Shown here one piece after another: positions 5 to 9,303 of a stretch of 64,000 nt of DNA. The notes under the pieces are model-generated. The model was not told where the DNA came from. It made no database searches and saw only the letters and a list, made by a program, of their open reading frames with translations. This DNA comes from Candidatus Saccharimonadota bacterium (GTDB taxonomy: Bacteria > Patescibacteriota > Saccharimonadia > Saccharimonadales > Saccharimonadaceae). The DNA is taken from contig JAQGHA010000009.1 in NCBI GenBank assembly GCA_028289065.1, forward strand, positions 1 through 64,000, in the 5' to 3' direction. The stretch's first letter is position 1. Every line of letters starts with the position of its first letter. The translations under genes and the position numbers were made by a program.

Positions 5-559
5 CTAACTCTCGCCCACCACGGTTTTACGACTACTGTTCGTTCGTCTGCTATGACTCTTGCCATGTCCGTGTATCTCCCTATTCTCGTTGATCGTTCT
101 TGGTTCGTTACTGTACCATAAAGCACCCACTATCGCAATTATGACCCCTGCTATTACATCGAACGGTGTATGCACCAATGCCAGCACACGGCCGATACAA
201 ACTACCACCACTAACGCCGCTAAAACGATGGATAGTTTTTTCATACGAGTTTCAAACCAGACGGCGGCAGCAATGGCGGTGACGAATAAAGCGTGGTCCG
301 ACGGGAAGCCGGGGTTATTAAGATATGAAGCACCTGGGTCAACGCCAAGAAGTTCGAAGGGACGAAGGTCGGAGGGCTGGTAAACGCTAGCTAGGAACTT
401 TGCCAGCATGTAAGCGGTTAAGCCAGCCATCAGAATGCGTGAATAGGCTTTAAAGCGCTGGCCTTTAGGTACTTTAAATAAAATAGCCCAAGCACCTATT
501 AAGACTACCGCAATAACGGAGTAATCGGCTATCAAACGAATGAGGAAATCGGCTGACAT
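5..559 (-). CDS. PAP2-family phosphatase (membrane, undecaprenyl-diphosphatase-like)
   Basis: 184-aa ORF, multi-TM, with GFPSDHA and H-x3-D-type C-terminal motif (HTPFDVIAG) typical of PAP2. Confidence 0.8.
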   Translation of the reverse strand: MSADFLIRLIADYSVIAVVLIGAWAILFKVPKGQRFKAYSRILMAGLTAYMLAKFLASVYQPSDLRPFELLGVDPGASYLNNPGFPSDHALFVTAIAAAVWFETRMKKLSIVLAALVVVVCIGRVLALVHTPFDVIAGVIIAIVGALWYSNEPRTINENREIHGHGKSHSRRTNSSRKTVVGES

Positions 560-816: not shown

Positions 817-927
817 ATGAATTTTACTATTCTTGAAACTGTCACAAACGAAGCCGTTCGTGACAAGAAGCAACTTAAAAACTTCGCTATAGAACAAGCA
901 TCTGCCGGCACACCATGGCTTGAATAA
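817..927 (+). CDS. Small peptide, candidate prenylated pheromone/RiPP precursor: MNFTILETVTNEAVRDKKQLKNFAIEQASAGTPWLE
   Basis: ATG preceded by AAGAAAGGATTGAC (good SD spacing); 36 codons then TAA; single Trp two residues from the C-terminal end; directly upstream of an isoprenoid-synthase-like gene; missing from the supplied ORF track because of its size. Confidence 0.65.
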   Translation: MNFTILETVTNEAVRDKKQLKNFAIEQASAGTPWLE

Positions 928-940
928 TTTTCAAGTCTTT

Positions 941-973
941 TTAGGCAAGAGTTTTCTAGAAACTCTTGCCTAA
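941..973 (+). terminator. Intercistronic hairpin / partial terminator between peptide and synthase
   Basis: Perfect 14-bp inverted repeat TTAGGCAAGAGTTT-tctag-AAACTCTTGCCTAA followed by a T-rich stretch. Confidence 0.65.
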
Positions 974-1016
974 ATGATTTTTATATATTTATTCTAAATT
1001 ATTACTGGAGATTCCT

Positions 1017-2285
1017 ATGTCTTCCCTTATGAGACAAGTAATTAATATGACAGAGATACTTGAGGCAAACAAAACAGTAACTCAGAATCAATTAACAAAC
1101 CTAGTTGAATCACTTATCGAATCAGAATCTCAACCTGGTGGACCATATTTAAACAAAAATCAGGCTGATTTAGTTCTCAATGCACGTATATTGAAATTAT
1201 TTCACTTACTCAATAAGGATCTTCCAGAAGTAGAAAATTATATATATGATCAATTATCGAATAATACACTTCTTTCAGTTAATGAAAAAACAAACGTTAA
1301 AAAGATAATAAATTTTAGCATAAGCAAAGAACCAGCTTTGCATACAAAACGTGAATATAACTATTCATTTTTTAATTCATTCGTTGAATCATTAACATCA
1401 GAAGTCGGTACAGAGATTGATATATTTGGTAAAAAAATAATTTCAGTTGATAAGTTCGGAGAAATAACTAGATTCTCTTCTTCATTTTATGAGTCTCTCA
1501 ATTTATCAAACATTATTTTAAGCATCGACTTGAAAAAACTTGGTGAAGCCAATTTCATGATTTGGCTAGCTTATTCTATTTACGACTCCGTCATAGACGG
1601 CGACATTAATCCCGGTGCCATATCCAGCGGAAATGTCGCATTGCGTAGAGCGCTAGAGTTATACAGATCGTCTAACATTGACTATTCCACTGTGTTGGAA
1701 TATATAGACAAAGTCGATATTGCTAATTCTTGGGAGGTGGCACATTGCAGGTTTAAAATAAACTCTAGAGAATTTGAAATCTCATCAGTCCCAAATCGCA
1801 CGGAACTTGAATTTTTACTAGAAAATAGAGCTATTGCGCATATTATAGGACCTTTGTGTATAGCTCAAGAAGTAAATATGACTTCGAATAATATCAAGAA
1901 ATTGGAACAAGCTTTAAAATATTACTGCATAGCGCGTCAGTTGAATGACGACATTCATGACTGGATTGAAGATTTCAATAACGGAAGAATAACATTTGTT
2001 TTAGCCGAGTTATTGCGAAAAACAAATTTCGCTTCAGGTAAACATCGCAATCTAAATGCTATAAATATTATGAAGAAATTATTTTATGATACAGAACTTG
2101 AAAAATTAAGTAAGCTAATTGAAACATATATAATTAAATCGATATCACTATTAGATCAAATCGATTCAAGGCTAAGCGATTGTATATTCACAACTTCATA
2201 CATACTGCCTATTGGGGATTCGGCTCAAAAAGCGTCAAAACAACACAAACTCAATAAAGACACTGTTCTAAAAATTCATCTATAG
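1017..2285 (+). CDS. Class I isoprenoid (polyprenyl) synthase-like protein, ComQ-like candidate modifier
   Basis: 422 aa; Asp-rich motifs YDSVIDGD and LNDDIHDWIED (DDxxD); N-terminal 'QPGGPYLNKNQADLVLNARILKLF' resembles terpene-cyclase-like repeat sequence; follows the 36-aa peptide. Confidence 0.6.
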   Translation: MSSLMRQVINMTEILEANKTVTQNQLTNLVESLIESESQPGGPYLNKNQADLVLNARILKLFHLLNKDLPEVENYIYDQLSNNTLLSVNEKTNVKKIINFSISKEPALHTKREYNYSFFNSFVESLTSEVGTEIDIFGKKIISVDKFGEITRFSSSFYESLNLSNIILSIDLKKLGEANFMIWLAYSIYDSVIDGDINPGAISSGNVALRRALELYRSSNIDYSTVLEYIDKVDIANSWEVAHCRFKINSREFEISSVPNRTELEFLLENRAIAHIIGPLCIAQEVNMTSNNIKKLEQALKYYCIARQLNDDIHDWIEDFNNGRITFVLAELLRKTNFASGKHRNLNAINIMKKLFYDTELEKLSKLIETYIIKSISLLDQIDSRLSDCIFTTSYILPIGDSAQKASKQHKLNKDTVLKIHL

Positions 2286-2310: not shown

Positions 2311-2919
2311 TTAAGATACATTTGTTTTAATATAGTCATAAAATTCTTTGAATGAAGGACATTTATTATATACAAGAGAGATATCAATAGATCCTGCAAT
2401 TCTTGGATTTATAGATGTTTGGTAAAAAATTTCTTTACCGGAACATTGAAATATAGCTTCTCTAAGTTTTTCTTTAGGAGATGTAATTGTCTCTGGATTA
2501 CCTGAAAATCTCGGTATTCTCTTAAGGCCTAAACTGGTTTTTATTCCAATAGGATCTGCTATCAACCATGCTTCTATTTCTTCTACCGGTATGCATACTA
2601 AATTGTTTCGAATAGCAGATAATGAAAGTTTCGAAGTTAACTCTGCTTTAAGTTTCTTATGATCATTTCGGTCTAAATCATGAACTACAATCAGTATGTC
2701 ACATTTTCTATTCTTTAAATCTTGCGCCCAGGCTACACATTTACTTCTTATCTTCGCGCAACCATTACCTACTTTTGACTTAAAACCTATACCATCAGTA
2801 TCGACAATTTTAGAGATAAGGATTCGAATAGTCTCGAAGTCGGTTGAATCTTCGGAAATAATGCCAATATGGCCTATGCCTTTATTTGAAGGAGAAGCCA
2901 TCTTCTTTCCAGTACTCAC
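2311..2919 (-). CDS. DUF4276/TOPRIM-like protein, partner of AAA ATPase (candidate defence nuclease)
   Basis: 202 aa; ISEDSTDFETIRILI (acidic start motif), ILIVVHDLDRNDHKKL (DxD), IPVEEIEAWLIAD; start overlaps end of upstream ATPase gene by 38 nt. Confidence 0.6.
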   Translation of the reverse strand: MSTGKKMASPSNKGIGHIGIISEDSTDFETIRILISKIVDTDGIGFKSKVGNGCAKIRSKCVAWAQDLKNRKCDILIVVHDLDRNDHKKLKAELTSKLSLSAIRNNLVCIPVEEIEAWLIADPIGIKTSLGLKRIPRFSGNPETITSPKEKLREAIFQCSGKEIFYQTSINPRIAGSIDISLVYNKCPSFKEFYDYIKTNVS

Positions 2920-4093
2920 CTAGATTACCAGAGTCGTTCAAGTATAGTTTAAGAGCACGGTAATCATCTTTTGACATAGCACTCTGTAGTGGCTCGACTA
3001 TTGTTCCCTGGTTACTTTTTCGTACCAGTGAAACATTCTCAGGACTTATCTTATCCAATACATAATCTGAGTGTGTACTAACTACAATTTGCTTATATTT
3101 TGATTGATCTTTAATTAATTCCATTACATTACTTAGTAAGCCATGGTGGACACAAACCTCAGGCTCTTCAATTAACATTAATTTACTATTATCATTTAAG
3201 ATATAAAAAATCAGTGCGAGTGTTTTAAATGTCCCTTCAGAAAGTTGATTAGGAGAAAGCTGTAAGGTTCCTATACTGAAGATCGGTACTACTAATACAC
3301 GATTGCTTGTTATTTTTTCGGTCATTCCTCCAGCTTTAATTTTTACTGAACTATTAGGAACTTTGATTTGAGAGAAATCTATATCGTCTACAAGATTAAC
3401 ACCCAAGTGATTAACAGCATTTATATAACGCTGATACGCTTTTTTATTATTATATTTCAATATATATAGATCGTATAAAAATTGTTGATGACCACTACGT
3501 TTGTTCGGTCTGCGTGCCGATCTATCTTCTTCAAGCTCGAAAGAAATGGGACTTTTTGATGGATCAGAGAATACAGTTGCACCATAATATTTAATACTTC
3601 GAAGAAATGGAGTAAGTTTGAATAGAAAATCTCTCAATATTTCATCATCAGGTAAGTACATACGTTCGTGAGTATGTAGTCTGTTCGCCCTAATCAGATA
3701 ATCGATAAAGTCAAATGCTTCAGGATCAATTTTTGTCCATTTAGTCATTTTAGAAACTCTTTTTAAATACAATTCAAAGTATTTTACTTCATCATATACT
3801 TCTATATTATCTAAATATAATTCTGCTTTGAGCCTATACGTATCGTTTTTGTAAGTAAAACTTGCGATTATCTCTGTCATGGGATAGATATTTTCTTCAA
3901 CGCCGTATCGACGATGTCGTGCATTTCCAGACGCTAATTGCCTTAGAAGCTTAACCGCACCTAAGGTACTCGTCTTACCAGATCCATTGAGTCCTATTAA
4001 AGCCGTTAACTCAGCATGAAGCTTGATATCTGTGTCAACCAGAGATTTATAATTAGCTACATGTATCTCATTTAAGACTAAATTGTCATCCAT
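2882..4093 (-). CDS. AAA family ATPase (AAA_15/21-like, RecF/OLD-type)
   Basis: Walker A GLNGSGKTS; LMLIEEPEVCVHH Walker B and VSTHSDYVLDKI; likely start MDDNLVLNEI at 4093 rather than track start 4195. Confidence 0.75.
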   Translation of the reverse strand: MDDNLVLNEIHVANYKSLVDTDIKLHAELTALIGLNGSGKTSTLGAVKLLRQLASGNARHRRYGVEENIYPMTEIIASFTYKNDTYRLKAELYLDNIEVYDEVKYFELYLKRVSKMTKWTKIDPEAFDFIDYLIRANRLHTHERMYLPDDEILRDFLFKLTPFLRSIKYYGATVFSDPSKSPISFELEEDRSARRPNKRSGHQQFLYDLYILKYNNKKAYQRYINAVNHLGVNLVDDIDFSQIKVPNSSVKIKAGGMTEKITSNRVLVVPIFSIGTLQLSPNQLSEGTFKTLALIFYILNDNSKLMLIEEPEVCVHHGLLSNVMELIKDQSKYKQIVVSTHSDYVLDKISPENVSLVRKSNQGTIVEPLQSAMSKDDYRALKLYLNDSGNLGEYWKEDGFSFK

Positions 4094-4474
4094 ATAGTAA
4101 TATAGTAACACTACATTGCCGTTTAAAAGATATCTGTTTGTTAAAAATCGATACAAGGCATACTCATTATATAGACTAACAAATCTCATGCTCACAAGCC
4201 GTTTACAGACAAGACCGGTCCCTCGTGATTAAGCTTCATTACATTAATGTGTATAAGAATTGGTTTCGAAATATAATTAGATGTTTCGTATATGAGGTAT
4301 AGTAATTTTATTTAACTTGTGCTATAATAGTAACATTGCATCCGAATGGATACCTCACTATTGCCTCAAGCCGCTCAGTCGCGGGCCCAACTGGTAAATA
4401 AATAGATATGGTTTACTGCTGTTCGTCTGCAGCGACAACATACCAATTTCTAACCCTGAAAGGGATTACTATTT

Positions 4475-5728
4475 ATGGCATATCGCCCTAGCAACAACTC
4501 ATCAACTCAACCACGTGGAGCTCGTCCTGGCCACCGTTCATTCGGCGGACAGTCTTCAAACAACCGACGTCCATCAGGTGGCAACGGCGGCGGAAACCGT
4601 CGCGGTGCTTACATTCACCCAAGCAAGTTTATTAACAAAGCTGTAGCTGCAGTCGACGAAGTCGTCTACGAGCACAAAAACAACTTTGCAGACTTTCCTT
4701 TTACAGCTGCTTTGCACGCTAACGTTGCAAAACGTGGCTACACTGCACCAAGCCCAATCCAAGACCAAGCGATTCCCCTTATTCTAGAAGGCCGCGACGT
4801 TATTGGTTTAGCTAACACTGGTACTGGTAAAACAGCTGCCTTCCTATTGCCTATCATTAACTCACTTACAACTCACAGCCCACGTGCTTCAGTGCTTATC
4901 ATGGCACCAACCCGTGAACTTGCTGTGCAAATTGAAGAAGAGTTCCGTGCCTTTTCACAAGGTATGCAACTATACGACGCAATTTGTGTTGGTGGTACTA
5001 ACATTGACCGTCAAATCCGCGACCTTCGTCGTGGTGCGCACGTAATCATTGGTACACCTGGCCGTCTTAAGGACCTTATGAACCGCCGCGAACTTAACCT
5101 AAGCAACGTTACGACACTTGTTCTTGACGAAGCTGACCGTATGCTCGACATGGGGTTCATCAACGACATCCGTACAATTGTTAGCCAAACTCCTGCTGAA
5201 CGCCAAACATTGTTCTTCAGCGCGACTATTACGCCTACTATTAAAGATTTAGTTAATACTTTCCTTAATGACCCAGCTGAAGTACAGGTACGTACTGCTG
5301 ATACCAGCGAACGTGTTGACCAAAACATCATCGAAGCTGATACCAAAGAAGCTCGCCTTGATATCCTTACTAACATGTTAAACGAAGCTGAATTCGAAAA
5401 AGTTCTAGTATTCGGTGAAACAAAGTTTGGTGTTCAACGACTTTCTGACCACCTTGAACGAAGTGGCCACTCATCTGTTGCCATTCACGGTAACAAGTCA
5501 CAATCTCAACGCCAACGTGCTTTGAAGACTTTCAAAGATGGTAAAGCTCGTATTTTGGTTGCAACCGACGTTGCTGCTCGTGGTTTAGACATTCCAAATG
5601 TTAGCCACGTTATCAACTACGACCAACCTGCTACCTACGAAGACTACGTTCACCGTATCGGCCGTACTGGTCGTGGTGGCGCTAGCGGTAAGGCACTTAC
5701 TTTTGTGCCAACCCAAACTCGTCGTTAG
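4475..5728 (+). CDS. DEAD-box RNA helicase
   Basis: ANTGTGKTAAF, PTRELAVQI, LDEADRMLDMGF, FSATIT, HRIGRTGRGG; N-terminal Asn/Gly/Arg-rich extension. Confidence 0.95.
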   Translation: MAYRPSNNSSTQPRGARPGHRSFGGQSSNNRRPSGGNGGGNRRGAYIHPSKFINKAVAAVDEVVYEHKNNFADFPFTAALHANVAKRGYTAPSPIQDQAIPLILEGRDVIGLANTGTGKTAAFLLPIINSLTTHSPRASVLIMAPTRELAVQIEEEFRAFSQGMQLYDAICVGGTNIDRQIRDLRRGAHVIIGTPGRLKDLMNRRELNLSNVTTLVLDEADRMLDMGFINDIRTIVSQTPAERQTLFFSATITPTIKDLVNTFLNDPAEVQVRTADTSERVDQNIIEADTKEARLDILTNMLNEAEFEKVLVFGETKFGVQRLSDHLERSGHSSVAIHGNKSQSQRQRALKTFKDGKARILVATDVAARGLDIPNVSHVINYDQPATYEDYVHRIGRTGRGGASGKALTFVPTQTRR

Positions 5729-5748
5729 TCAGCTCGGCAAACTCGTCG

Positions 5749-6549
5749 TTAGTTTACGAGACTGCTAATTTCTTTAGCAACAAATTTAGTGTACCGGCCT
5801 ATGATTTCATGGCCGGTCACTATTTTTTTTGCGGTAATGTTTGGCATGGCTTTTGCTAAGTTTCGAATGCGCGCACCAATAACGACCGGGTCTAACGTGC
5901 CGTATAAAATTGTGATTGGTAATTTCAACTGAGCCGCATCTTCTAAGGCGGTTTGGTTAACGATACTTGCTTCCAAGGCTGCCACATAGGTGGCGATGTT
6001 CCCGGCATTAATATCTAATGCTTTGGTGGCTAGTTTTAACTTCACAATAAGTGGCGACAGCGATTCTAATGTTTGCGGGTATTTCTTTGCTCGTCGGTAT
6101 AAATCTTTTAATAGTTCATCGCGTTGTAATAGTTGGCGCTTTTCTTCAGTTTGCTTATAAAACGGTGGGCTACATAAAATGAGCTGCTTAGCGATAAATG
6201 GGTAGCGCTTGGCAACTTCAACCGCCACTAAGCTACCCAGTGAGTGGCCAACAATAATAGGTTGCTTCAACAAACGAAGTTTAAATAATGTTGCCCCTAC
6301 TGATCTCGCCTGCGTTTTAGCATCGTAAATTGCCCAGCTTGGCTTTGGCGATTCCCCAAAACCAAGTAAATCAATGCCTAGCACCCGAACATCTTTCGGT
6401 AGCAACGGTATCAGTTCTTCCCAAGCCTTGGCGGAGTTGCCAATGCCGTGTATCAAGATAATGGTTTCCTTTGGTTTTTTAGGTGACAAAAACTCCGTCA
6501 CATGTAGTGGGTACGGAATTTTTAACCAACGGTGAACAAACACATCCAT
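5749..6549 (-). CDS. alpha/beta fold hydrolase
   Basis: IILIHGIGNSAKAWEEL, VGHSLGSLVAVEVA, YGTLDPVV. Confidence 0.85.
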   Translation of the reverse strand: MDVFVHRWLKIPYPLHVTEFLSPKKPKETIILIHGIGNSAKAWEELIPLLPKDVRVLGIDLLGFGESPKPSWAIYDAKTQARSVGATLFKLRLLKQPIIVGHSLGSLVAVEVAKRYPFIAKQLILCSPPFYKQTEEKRQLLQRDELLKDLYRRAKKYPQTLESLSPLIVKLKLATKALDINAGNIATYVAALEASIVNQTALEDAAQLKLPITILYGTLDPVVIGARIRNLAKAMPNITAKKIVTGHEIIGRYTKFVAKEISSLVN

Positions 6550-7296: not shown

Positions 7297-9300
7297 CTAA
7301 TCCTGACTATATATCCAAGCTCGTAAATACGTCCGAGAATTGCCATCATCAATAAATTCGTCAGTCTGCCTATCCAGAGCCTGAATTGCAGCAGCTTTAT
7401 CACTTAAAGCTAAGTACATCAGCAAGTAATCACCCAGCGCTACGTTGTAGTTATTCGGCTTGTCTTGTTTGGCAAGTTTTTCTTTTATGCCACCGTTATC
7501 GGCTTTGAATGTTTCCATCACTGGGCTCATTGGAATAAGTTGAATACCCAATTTCGTATTTGATTCATCACTGAAGAATGTCGAGTATGTCCGTTTACCA
7601 CCAAAGTTTAACGAAGCAACCGGGCTGGTGTAATTCTTTAAATAACTTGCCGATGTATCAACACTTCGCCAAGCGGTGTTAGCTGTCGCGGTTTCATTCG
7701 ACAACATCCATTGGCCATTCTGCTTCAATGTTTTGTTACCAATTACCTCCGCCCAAAGCGCTACACCGTTATATGCATTCAAAGCTTCCGAACTCGATTC
7801 TTGGTTGTTTCCATCTTGGAAGGGCGACAAACCGGCTGCCCACGAGTGCGCCGAGTATGGGTCATAGGTTCGCTCTACTGGAAATTCAGGGTACGTTTCG
7901 TAGGAAGCAATATCGGCTACCAGTAAATTTACTTCGTCTTTATATTCATCAACAAATGATTTATCGTATTTACCCAAAATACTGGCTGCGTATATAAAGT
8001 AGCCATAGTGGAAATGGTGGTCGTTAAAATCTTCCGAACCAAAAGCTGCCGTTAAGGCCGCAACACCCTTTAGGTCAGTATCGTAATAAAAATAGTTCTT
8101 ACCAAGCCGAGCCGAAAATTCTCGCTTCAAAACTGATTCCAATTGAGTGGCTACATCCGCTTGATCAAGTTGCTTAGCTATACCGTACAACATTGCTGCC
8201 CTCGCTAATTGTTTACCGGCAAAGTAACTATCTTGAGCTTCAATGGTAATATCCTGGCTATCGGCTTGTAGGTCGCTAATAACCAAGCGCTTCTCTTCGT
8301 CGCTCAGCTTACCTAACGACAACTGGTTCGAAGCTGAAATAAGTGGCACCGTGGTTGTAAATTCATTGCCCCGTCGTGATTGCATATCGCCATAGATACT
8401 TTGGTAAGCAAGATCTACCTTTTCACCACCATTTGCAGTTTGATAAGCCATAGTACTTACGACGGTTGGTTTTTGGTTGGCTGTTTCGTATTTAAATTTT
8501 GTTAACGACTGTCCGTCTTTTTCCTCATGCGTTATTTTAACGCCCGTCACTTCATTACCGGAATTCTCAGCTAACATGTCGGTCGAACCTTCTGGAAGTG
8601 CATAGAAGGTCGCTAAACCACCCTTAGGTACGGTTACTGTCACCTGTCCCCCATCGGCCGATAGCTTCGCATTACTATGCGTAGCAATCGAGTAAGTACG
8701 AATGCCTTTTTTAAATGTATATTCGCCATTAACTACCTTGCCACCTTCAGTATTAACAACCCGAAGTACCGAGTCACTTCCTGCGCGATAAAACACATAC
8801 GGCGAACCCTGTGCAATTGTTAGTTTGCCTAAGGCCTGTTCGCCTTTTGAATAAGTTAAAGATGCAGATGTCTTATCGAAACGACTAAGTTGAAATTGAG
8901 TTGCTCCCTCAACTAATACTTCTATTCCCGCTACATGGCCGCCAGTAATTGTTTTGGCGTCACTCACTATAGTTGGTAGTCCAATTTGAAACCCAGTGTC
9001 CAAAGCTTGAATACTAAGCGGCATAGGAAAAACTGCTAGTGGTTTTTCTTGCAAGGCTAAGCCACTAATCCAAGAATTTGTTGGCGGCTGCACCCCCTCG
9101 GCAATTCGATTAAGGGATGCCATTGAAGCTGCTTTAGTTGGCAGTTCCTTTAAAGCATTTTTGTTTAAAATAGACGTATCACTTGAAAATAGTCCAAGTC
9201 CATTAGTAGTATTTCGATTTACAAGTACTATAGCGACAACACCGATCAGTACGACAGCGAGTACAGCGCTCGTTAGTATGTAGGTAGTTCGGCGCTTCAT
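7297..9300 (-). CDS. Glycoside hydrolase family 81 (endo-1,3-beta-glucanase-like), N-terminal membrane anchor
   Basis: 667 aa; HHFHYGYFIYAASIL, RTYDPYSAHSWAAGLSPFQDGNNQESSSEALNAYNG are GH81-type motifs; N-terminal TM segment. Confidence 0.8.
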   Translation of the reverse strand: MKRRTTYILTSAVLAVVLIGVVAIVLVNRNTTNGLGLFSSDTSILNKNALKELPTKAASMASLNRIAEGVQPPTNSWISGLALQEKPLAVFPMPLSIQALDTGFQIGLPTIVSDAKTITGGHVAGIEVLVEGATQFQLSRFDKTSASLTYSKGEQALGKLTIAQGSPYVFYRAGSDSVLRVVNTEGGKVVNGEYTFKKGIRTYSIATHSNAKLSADGGQVTVTVPKGGLATFYALPEGSTDMLAENSGNEVTGVKITHEEKDGQSLTKFKYETANQKPTVVSTMAYQTANGGEKVDLAYQSIYGDMQSRRGNEFTTTVPLISASNQLSLGKLSDEEKRLVISDLQADSQDITIEAQDSYFAGKQLARAAMLYGIAKQLDQADVATQLESVLKREFSARLGKNYFYYDTDLKGVAALTAAFGSEDFNDHHFHYGYFIYAASILGKYDKSFVDEYKDEVNLLVADIASYETYPEFPVERTYDPYSAHSWAAGLSPFQDGNNQESSSEALNAYNGVALWAEVIGNKTLKQNGQWMLSNETATANTAWRSVDTSASYLKNYTSPVASLNFGGKRTYSTFFSDESNTKLGIQLIPMSPVMETFKADNGGIKEKLAKQDKPNNYNVALGDYLLMYLALSDKAAAIQALDRQTDEFIDDGNSRTYLRAWIYSQD

Positions 9301-9303
9301 CAA

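Follow-up and report, generated by a model that had tools for sequence, protein, structure and literature searches.

What does a gene for a 36-aa peptide with a Trp close to its C-terminus do beside a gene for an isoprenoid-synthase-like enzyme in a Candidatus Saccharimonadota bacterium? An earlier note, made from the sequence alone, had read the pair as a distant analogue of ComX and ComQ, the pheromone precursor and prenyltransferase of Bacillus. We asked how far this reading holds in the window, by which we mean the whole 64 kb stretch of DNA that was analysed, and in the relatives of its two genes.

The peptide gene, the hairpin and the enzyme

The features of the locus are as follows.

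817..927, + strand: 36-aa precursor peptide, putatively ComX-like in role (window-excluded HMM E 4e-9; homologues in 70/85 loci, window included)
916..918, + strand: codon of Trp34, where the prenyl group is proposed to attach (all homologous peptides found have a Trp 1-6 residues from their C-terminus)
940..974, + strand: intergenic hairpin with a 16-bp stem, a loop of 3 nt and a T-rich tail (z -4.5)
1017..2285, + strand: 422-aa class I isoprenoid-synthase-fold enzyme, proposed Trp prenyltransferase (HMM, motifs, predicted fold)
1017..1391, boundary approximate, + strand: degenerate remnant of a class II cyclase (beta) domain at the N-terminus (retains GGPY and positions close to it; has lost the DxDD and QW motifs)
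1584..1598, + strand: first Asp-rich motif, D190-S-V-I-D194 (DDxxD in most relatives)
1938..1973, + strand: second Asp-rich motif with the preceding Gln, Q308-LNDDIHDWIE-D319 (invariant residues)

The earlier note had placed a small ORF at 817-927 and a 422-aa protein on the same strand, and both the coordinates and the strand were confirmed. The peptide frame starts with an ATG at 817, preceded by AAAGAAAGG, and its translation, MNFTILETVTNEAVRDKKQLKNFAIEQASAGTPWLE, combines a conserved leader part (R15) with a C-terminal TPWLE. With a peptide HMM built without the window sequence, 817-927 ranked first among the 1772 open frames of the window (E 4.1e-9; runner-up 0.056), showing that the 36-aa ORF is a real gene and not a chance match. 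The ComX model PF05952 matched neither the window peptide nor anything in six tested genomes, and the peptide was rejected as a ComX family member on this absence; the control is weak, as no control genome, B. subtilis included, passed the cut-off.

The hairpin at 940-974 was absent from the earlier note. The 92-nt stretch that holds its stem folds at -25.1 kcal/mol (z -4.5 compared with shuffles), and in 70 loci the region 3' of the peptide has a median z of -1.7, with z < -2 in 32 of them, so that a hairpin at this place is common among relatives though not universal. We infer that 940-974 is a probable attenuator, which would raise the expression of the peptide over that of the enzyme. On the other side, the gene 5' of the peptide encodes a PAP2 phosphatase (5-559, minus strand).

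The enzyme frame starts at 1017 after TGGAG, and an enzyme HMM built without the window found it at E 1.2e-79. Single-sequence searches gave the window protein no match in NCBIfam and chance-level matches only in Pfam, and the peptide no match at all; the polyprenyl synthetase model PF00348 left the window protein unmatched and matched 2 of 71 family members weakly (best E 0.07). The AlphaFold model (pLDDT 90.9) had FPP/GGPP synthases as its top PDB matches in Foldseek, and it predicts an all-alpha class I isoprenoid synthase fold of the trans-IDS type with two Asp-rich motifs. A fold of another class would have refuted the ComQ-like reading, and this was not the outcome. A phmmer search of the window protein against the PDB returned viral glycoprotein noise only and was discarded, while a role as the housekeeping prenyl synthase was ruled out by a separate PF00348 protein on contig 8 of the genome.

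Both Asp-rich motifs that had been claimed were found. The first is altered in the window copy, reading DSVID with Ser as its second residue compared with the DDxxD of most relatives; the core of the second, D311-DIH-D315, sits within QLNDDIHDWIED. Eight residues are invariant in 71 sequences (D190, D194, Q308, D311, D312, D315, W316 and D319). The acid motif of class II cyclases, DxDD or a close variant, is absent from the window copy and is present as DxDD in 57 of 85 loci. On the tree, the window enzyme has a long terminal branch (1.55) and is fast-evolving; because of this branch and of the Ser in the first Asp motif, it remains possible that the enzyme has changed function or is decaying.

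The enzyme family and its operon in relatives

Pattern scans from the window protein alone gave zero relatives in prokaryote genome contigs or viral contigs, and the window enzyme matched nothing among phage sequences. An alignment-based scan of 85,462 prokaryote species genomes found relatives in 81 stretches. Every record title that names a group is of CPR/Patescibacteria (a few say only "bacterium"), covering Saccharibacteria, Nomura-, Colwell-, Moranii-, Levy-, Magasanik- and Shapirobacteria, Microgenomates, CPR2 and others. The relatives found thus all appear to be CPR/Patescibacteria, and the family, which has no name and of which the window protein is a diverged member, is CPR-wide; the scan relied on two short conserved patterns, so distant relatives elsewhere may have been missed. 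Of 384 genomes from a sample of the window's phylum, 19 (~5%) have the enzyme, as do 18 of 296 genomes of its class, the window's own included, the class counts coming from a single-sequence search and being perhaps slightly low. A weak tblastn match on a Nostoc plasmid, inside a large protein annotated with tetratricopeptides, was not counted as a relative.

In long members of the family (~610-735 aa), the N-terminal part is an alpha-alpha barrel that contains QxxDGSF/W repeats as well as PDDLDDT, and an all-alpha C-terminal domain with DDxxD and QLNDDxHDW follows it. A profile of the N-terminal domain matched drimenol synthase at E 8e-15 when built from 12 sequences and 8e-18 from 71, with PDDLDDT aligned to the corresponding motif of the solved drimenol synthase. 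Moreover, the AlphaFold model of one long form (L058, pLDDT 93.8) retrieved drimenol synthases, squalene-hopene cyclases, trans-prenyl synthases and the tryptophan prenyltransferase Ord1 in Foldseek. The typical member therefore carries a fused class II cyclase domain that resembles drimenol synthase, and in the window copy this domain is degenerate. Since the label "no DxDD" requires four changes on the tree, either DxDD was lost more than once or its history was more complex. In two other Patescibacteria (G617:C3 124093-125070 and G609:C7 8157-8954), the cyclase-like and prenyltransferase-like parts seem to be separate or shortened proteins.

We also looked at what surrounds the enzyme. In 59 of 85 loci, the genes for a response regulator, the peptide, a histidine kinase and the enzyme follow one another in this order on one strand. 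Pfam assigned HATPase_c to the kinase and Response_reg plus Trans_reg_C to the regulator, and a simple hydropathy count placed mostly 5-6 TM segments before the kinase domain. The kinase open frame starts a median of 10 nt past the peptide stop, and kinase and enzyme frames often overlap. By analogy, and with sensing inferred, this operon would be the functional counterpart of ComA-ComX-ComP-ComQ. Among the 296 genomes of the class, 15 have both sensor and enzyme, 3 the enzyme alone and 14 the sensor alone (Fisher p 9e-15, an optimistic value because related genomes are not independent). Other sensor-type kinases occur elsewhere in the class without the enzyme nearby (L139-L143).

A profile of 12 seed peptides found the peptide in 70 of 85 loci, window included, mostly ~1.3-1.8 kb 5' of the enzyme frame; at the 9-bit cut-off used, a few of the peptides may be false, and the peptides of L036 and L116 are partly masked. 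All 70 carry a Trp with 1-6 residues after it, and Pro precedes this Trp (PW) in 56. Because the seeds themselves contained PW, we ran a leader-only HMM restricted to the first 24 alignment columns, which are Trp-free. Of its 54 non-seed matches, 52 have a W among their last 7 residues, both exceptions being low-scoring, compared with a background of 12% among ORFs of 30-80 aa from the same DNA. The Trp near the C-terminus is the most constant feature of the peptide. Enzyme homologues without an upstream small ORF bearing a conserved Trp would have spoken against the earlier reading; such an ORF is present, mostly just 5' of the kinase gene, and this refutation was not met either. The correlation of peptide and kinase distances gave a partial Mantel r of 0.11 when controlling for enzyme and regulator, and that of peptide and regulator 0.14, a signal for peptide-kinase coevolution that is weak and non-specific and that we do not use as evidence.

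Loci with one half of the system

The window locus has no kinase or regulator and keeps only peptide and enzyme, as the earlier note had claimed in stating that no ComP/ComA-type pair lies in the window; the claim held for the locus, while most relatives carry the pair in their operon. No receptor kinase was found in the rest of the genome (G000) either, the best hit of the sensor profile being E 0.36 in this 97.8%-complete assembly. Two further loci, L049 and L116, also have peptide and enzyme without kinase, making three kinase-less loci. The sensor profile found nothing in G059 or G249, and gave E 1e-87 in G072 and 7e-58 in G047.

The reverse state was found in seven genomes of the window's genus, which have the regulator-kinase sensor without a detected enzyme. 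In six of these (G004, G053, G077, G096, G139 and G243), the pair lies directly beside a PAP2 gene, in divergent orientation; for the seventh, G144, the fetched stretch contains no PAP2 gene. The receiver-only pairs beside PAP2 in the genus are listed here.

L131, 5634-7697: receiver-only regulator-kinase pair
L132-L136 and L138: further receiver-only regulator-kinase pairs

None of these loci (L131-L136, L138) has a detectable peptide or enzyme nearby. In the window and in G249, it is the peptide-enzyme pair that lies beside the same PAP2 gene. G072 carries a regulator-kinase pair beside PAP2 plus a complete system, G047 has its complete set near PAP2, and in G059 the PAP2 gene is ~3 kb away. 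A hydrolase gene of the window (5749-6549) also borders several of the receiver-only pairs.

The window locus therefore appears to be a sender-only remnant. On the tree, the window lies beside L048, which has a full operon, and L049 and L116 form a separate clade; for this reason the sender-only state would have arisen at least twice if the tree is right, bootstrap values there being rough and the window branch long. The simplest reading is a complete ancestor from which opposite halves were lost, with replacement by recombination not excluded. MAG assemblies may miss or mis-join genes.

These loci bear on three other explanations. In the first, the window copy is a decaying remnant, its ORFs intact by recent ancestry and no longer functional. 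The long branch, the altered first Asp motif, the lost receiver and the degenerate N-terminal domain speak for it. Against it, neither the Trp nor the invariant residues of the two Asp motifs have been lost, the structural model is confident (pLDDT 91), and the sender-only state also occurs in the separate clade of L049 and L116. We consider decay unlikely.

In the second, the peptide is not a substrate: the product of the enzyme would be a free terpene or prenyl diphosphate, and the peptide would regulate the kinase as an inhibitor or co-sensor. Fusions of class II and class I domains usually yield free terpenes, and the peptide gene adjoins the kinase gene in most loci, as this explanation would have it. 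However, the peptide tracks the enzyme, because the three kinase-less loci keep it together with the enzyme and the kinase-only loci of the genus lack a detectable one. With the Trp near the C-terminus as the most constant peptide feature, this explanation is the least credible of the three, and we hold it to be very unlikely.

In the third, the product is a lipidated RiPP whose targets are other cells, as an antimicrobial or a host-directed molecule; kinase and regulator would then only autoregulate its production or sense damage or immunity cues. Three loci (those of the window, L049 and L116) keep peptide and enzyme in the absence of the kinase, which would fit a product that is of use by itself, and prenylated, cyclised Trp RiPPs exist outside quorum sensing (PMC13290415). 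On the contrary, the peptide gene usually sits between regulator and kinase at a median of 10 nt from the kinase frame, several genomes retain regulator and kinase without the enzyme, and no recurring immunity or export gene was seen in the operon in a search that was not exhaustive. We judge this explanation improbable too.

Directly 3' of the window enzyme, a DUF4276 protein and an AAA_21 ATPase are encoded on the minus strand (2311-4195). The pair matches the PADLOC candidate defence models HEC-01B/HEC-01A, and no copy of the ATPase was found at the corresponding site in receiver-only loci. Further on, 7297-9303 (minus strand) encodes a protein with a glycosyl hydrolase family 81 C-terminal domain and a hydrophobic N-terminus.

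Proposed mechanism and comparison with known systems

Returning to the signalling reading, we consider it likely that peptide and enzyme form the sending side of a signalling system based on a terpenyl peptide, with prenylation, cleavage, export or secretion and sensing all inferred. The class I domain would bind a prenyl diphosphate via Mg2+ on the Asp-rich motifs and pass its prenyl group on to Trp34. The N-terminal part of the 36-aa precursor would act as the recognition leader, and unidentified proteases would then free the lipidated C-terminal end as a short peptide. Most relatives may in addition cyclise the chain with their N-terminal class II domain, before the transfer (drimenol synthase acts in this way on farnesyl diphosphate) or after it. 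There, the product would be sensed by the histidine kinase with 5-6 TM segments encoded between peptide and enzyme, which would phosphorylate the OmpR-type regulator encoded upstream. In the window lineage, the cyclase domain has decayed and a linear prenyl group is expected, and with the kinase-regulator half gone the signal would be sent without a dedicated receiver. No dedicated protease or exporter was identified.

Gene content, order and conservation, the predicted fold, the retention of the motifs and the absence of the kinase from the assembly are shown. That Trp34 is prenylated is an inference, drawn from the fold, the motifs and the conservation and from what is known of ComQ, PalQ and ChrPC, there being no biochemistry for any member, and the signal role of the product only from the gene neighbourhood of relatives. 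The earlier analogy with ComX/ComQ is supported, with Trp34 prenylation, prenyl type and signal role as inferences. A Gln beside the second Asp motif is described as a Trp-recognition feature of ComQ, PalQ, ChrPC and Ord1 (PMC13290415). Gln is also common at this position in ordinary prenyl synthases, and for this reason the invariant Q308 gives only weak support for Trp recognition.

ComQXPA of Bacillus has the same four roles in one locus as most relatives here (ComQ prenyltransferase, ComX peptide, ComP kinase and ComA regulator), and shares with them a Trp near the peptide C-terminus, an enzyme of isoprenoid-synthase fold, a multi-TM kinase and a peptide without obvious signal sequence. 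The differences are several. Gene order is RR-X-HK-Q here and Q-X-P-A there; the regulator is OmpR-type with Trans_reg_C, whereas the DNA-binding domain of ComA is PF00196 (PMC4008528); most members have the enzyme fused to a class II cyclase domain; and the membrane kinase and response regulator are missing at the window locus. In addition, ComQ has the first Asp motif without the second (PMC10853753), whereas the window enzyme keeps the second intact and has the first altered. A 2014 census found no comQXPA outside Firmicutes (PMC4008528). As peptide sequence, gene order, regulator type, enzyme architecture and host range all differ, we regard the CPR family as a functional counterpart of ComQXPA and not as a member of it.

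ChrPC and NctPC (Hubrich et al. 2024) are bifunctional RiPP prenyltransferase-cyclases that act on a peptide Trp, the P domain of ChrPC being trans-IDS-like (PMC13290415). They likewise join prenyltransferase and terpene cyclase in one protein, and they are described as prenylating first (PMC13290415). In the family studied here, by contrast, the cyclase is N-terminal and drimenol-synthase-like, the locus includes a two-component system, and the window copy has lost its cyclase. In Paenibacillus alvei, PalQ, an enzyme of the isoprene synthase superfamily, prenylates a Trp at the C-terminus of PalX (PMC10853753). PalX has an NHLP leader and a C-terminal Trp, and C-terminal extensions abolish PalQ activity, whereas 1-6 residues follow the Trp here. 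The closest solved relatives of the N-terminal domain of long forms are the HAD-fused drimenol synthases 9mhs and 9m7d, whose partner domain is a HAD phosphatase instead of a prenyltransferase-like class I domain.

Bifunctional prenylation and cyclisation on Trp is therefore known chemistry (ChrPC, NctPC; PMC13290415). What appears to be new is its joining to a two-component system in CPR, together with the split into sender and receiver. The open-access literature searched, which did not cover bioRxiv preprints as a collection, held no report of peptide quorum sensing in CPR bacteria. A bolder reading, which in our opinion could as easily fail as hold, is that CPR/Patescibacteria possess a system of the quorum-sensing type, with a single fused enzyme responsible both for cyclising a terpene and for attaching it to the Trp of a ribosomal peptide, and with a dedicated two-component readout. 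In this reading, the system has split into sender-only and receiver-only lineages at one chromosomal site in a Saccharibacteria genus, and these may talk to other strains or to neighbours. If this is true, scarce genome is spent on terpenyl-peptide signalling by ultra-small bacteria, many of them thought to be host-dependent, in ~5% of sampled phylum genomes; new terpene-peptide hybrids would be predicted; a defined set of substrate, enzyme and receptor could be tested in E. coli; and the genus would offer a natural example in which sending and receiving were reciprocally lost at the same place in the chromosome.

Concerning the prenyl donor, polyprenyl-synthetase-like genes were observed near the operon in four loci (L029 9766-10806, L032 3756-4820, L033 9388-10425 on the minus strand and L035 6363-7451 on the minus strand), and the one of them that was tested matched PF00348 at E 1.5e-55. 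It is possible that these genes supply the prenyl diphosphate. In L035, this gene sits between peptide and enzyme in a rearranged locus, with the peptide (6104-6220) and the kinase (4650-6002) on the minus strand, coordinates as fetched, opposite to the enzyme.
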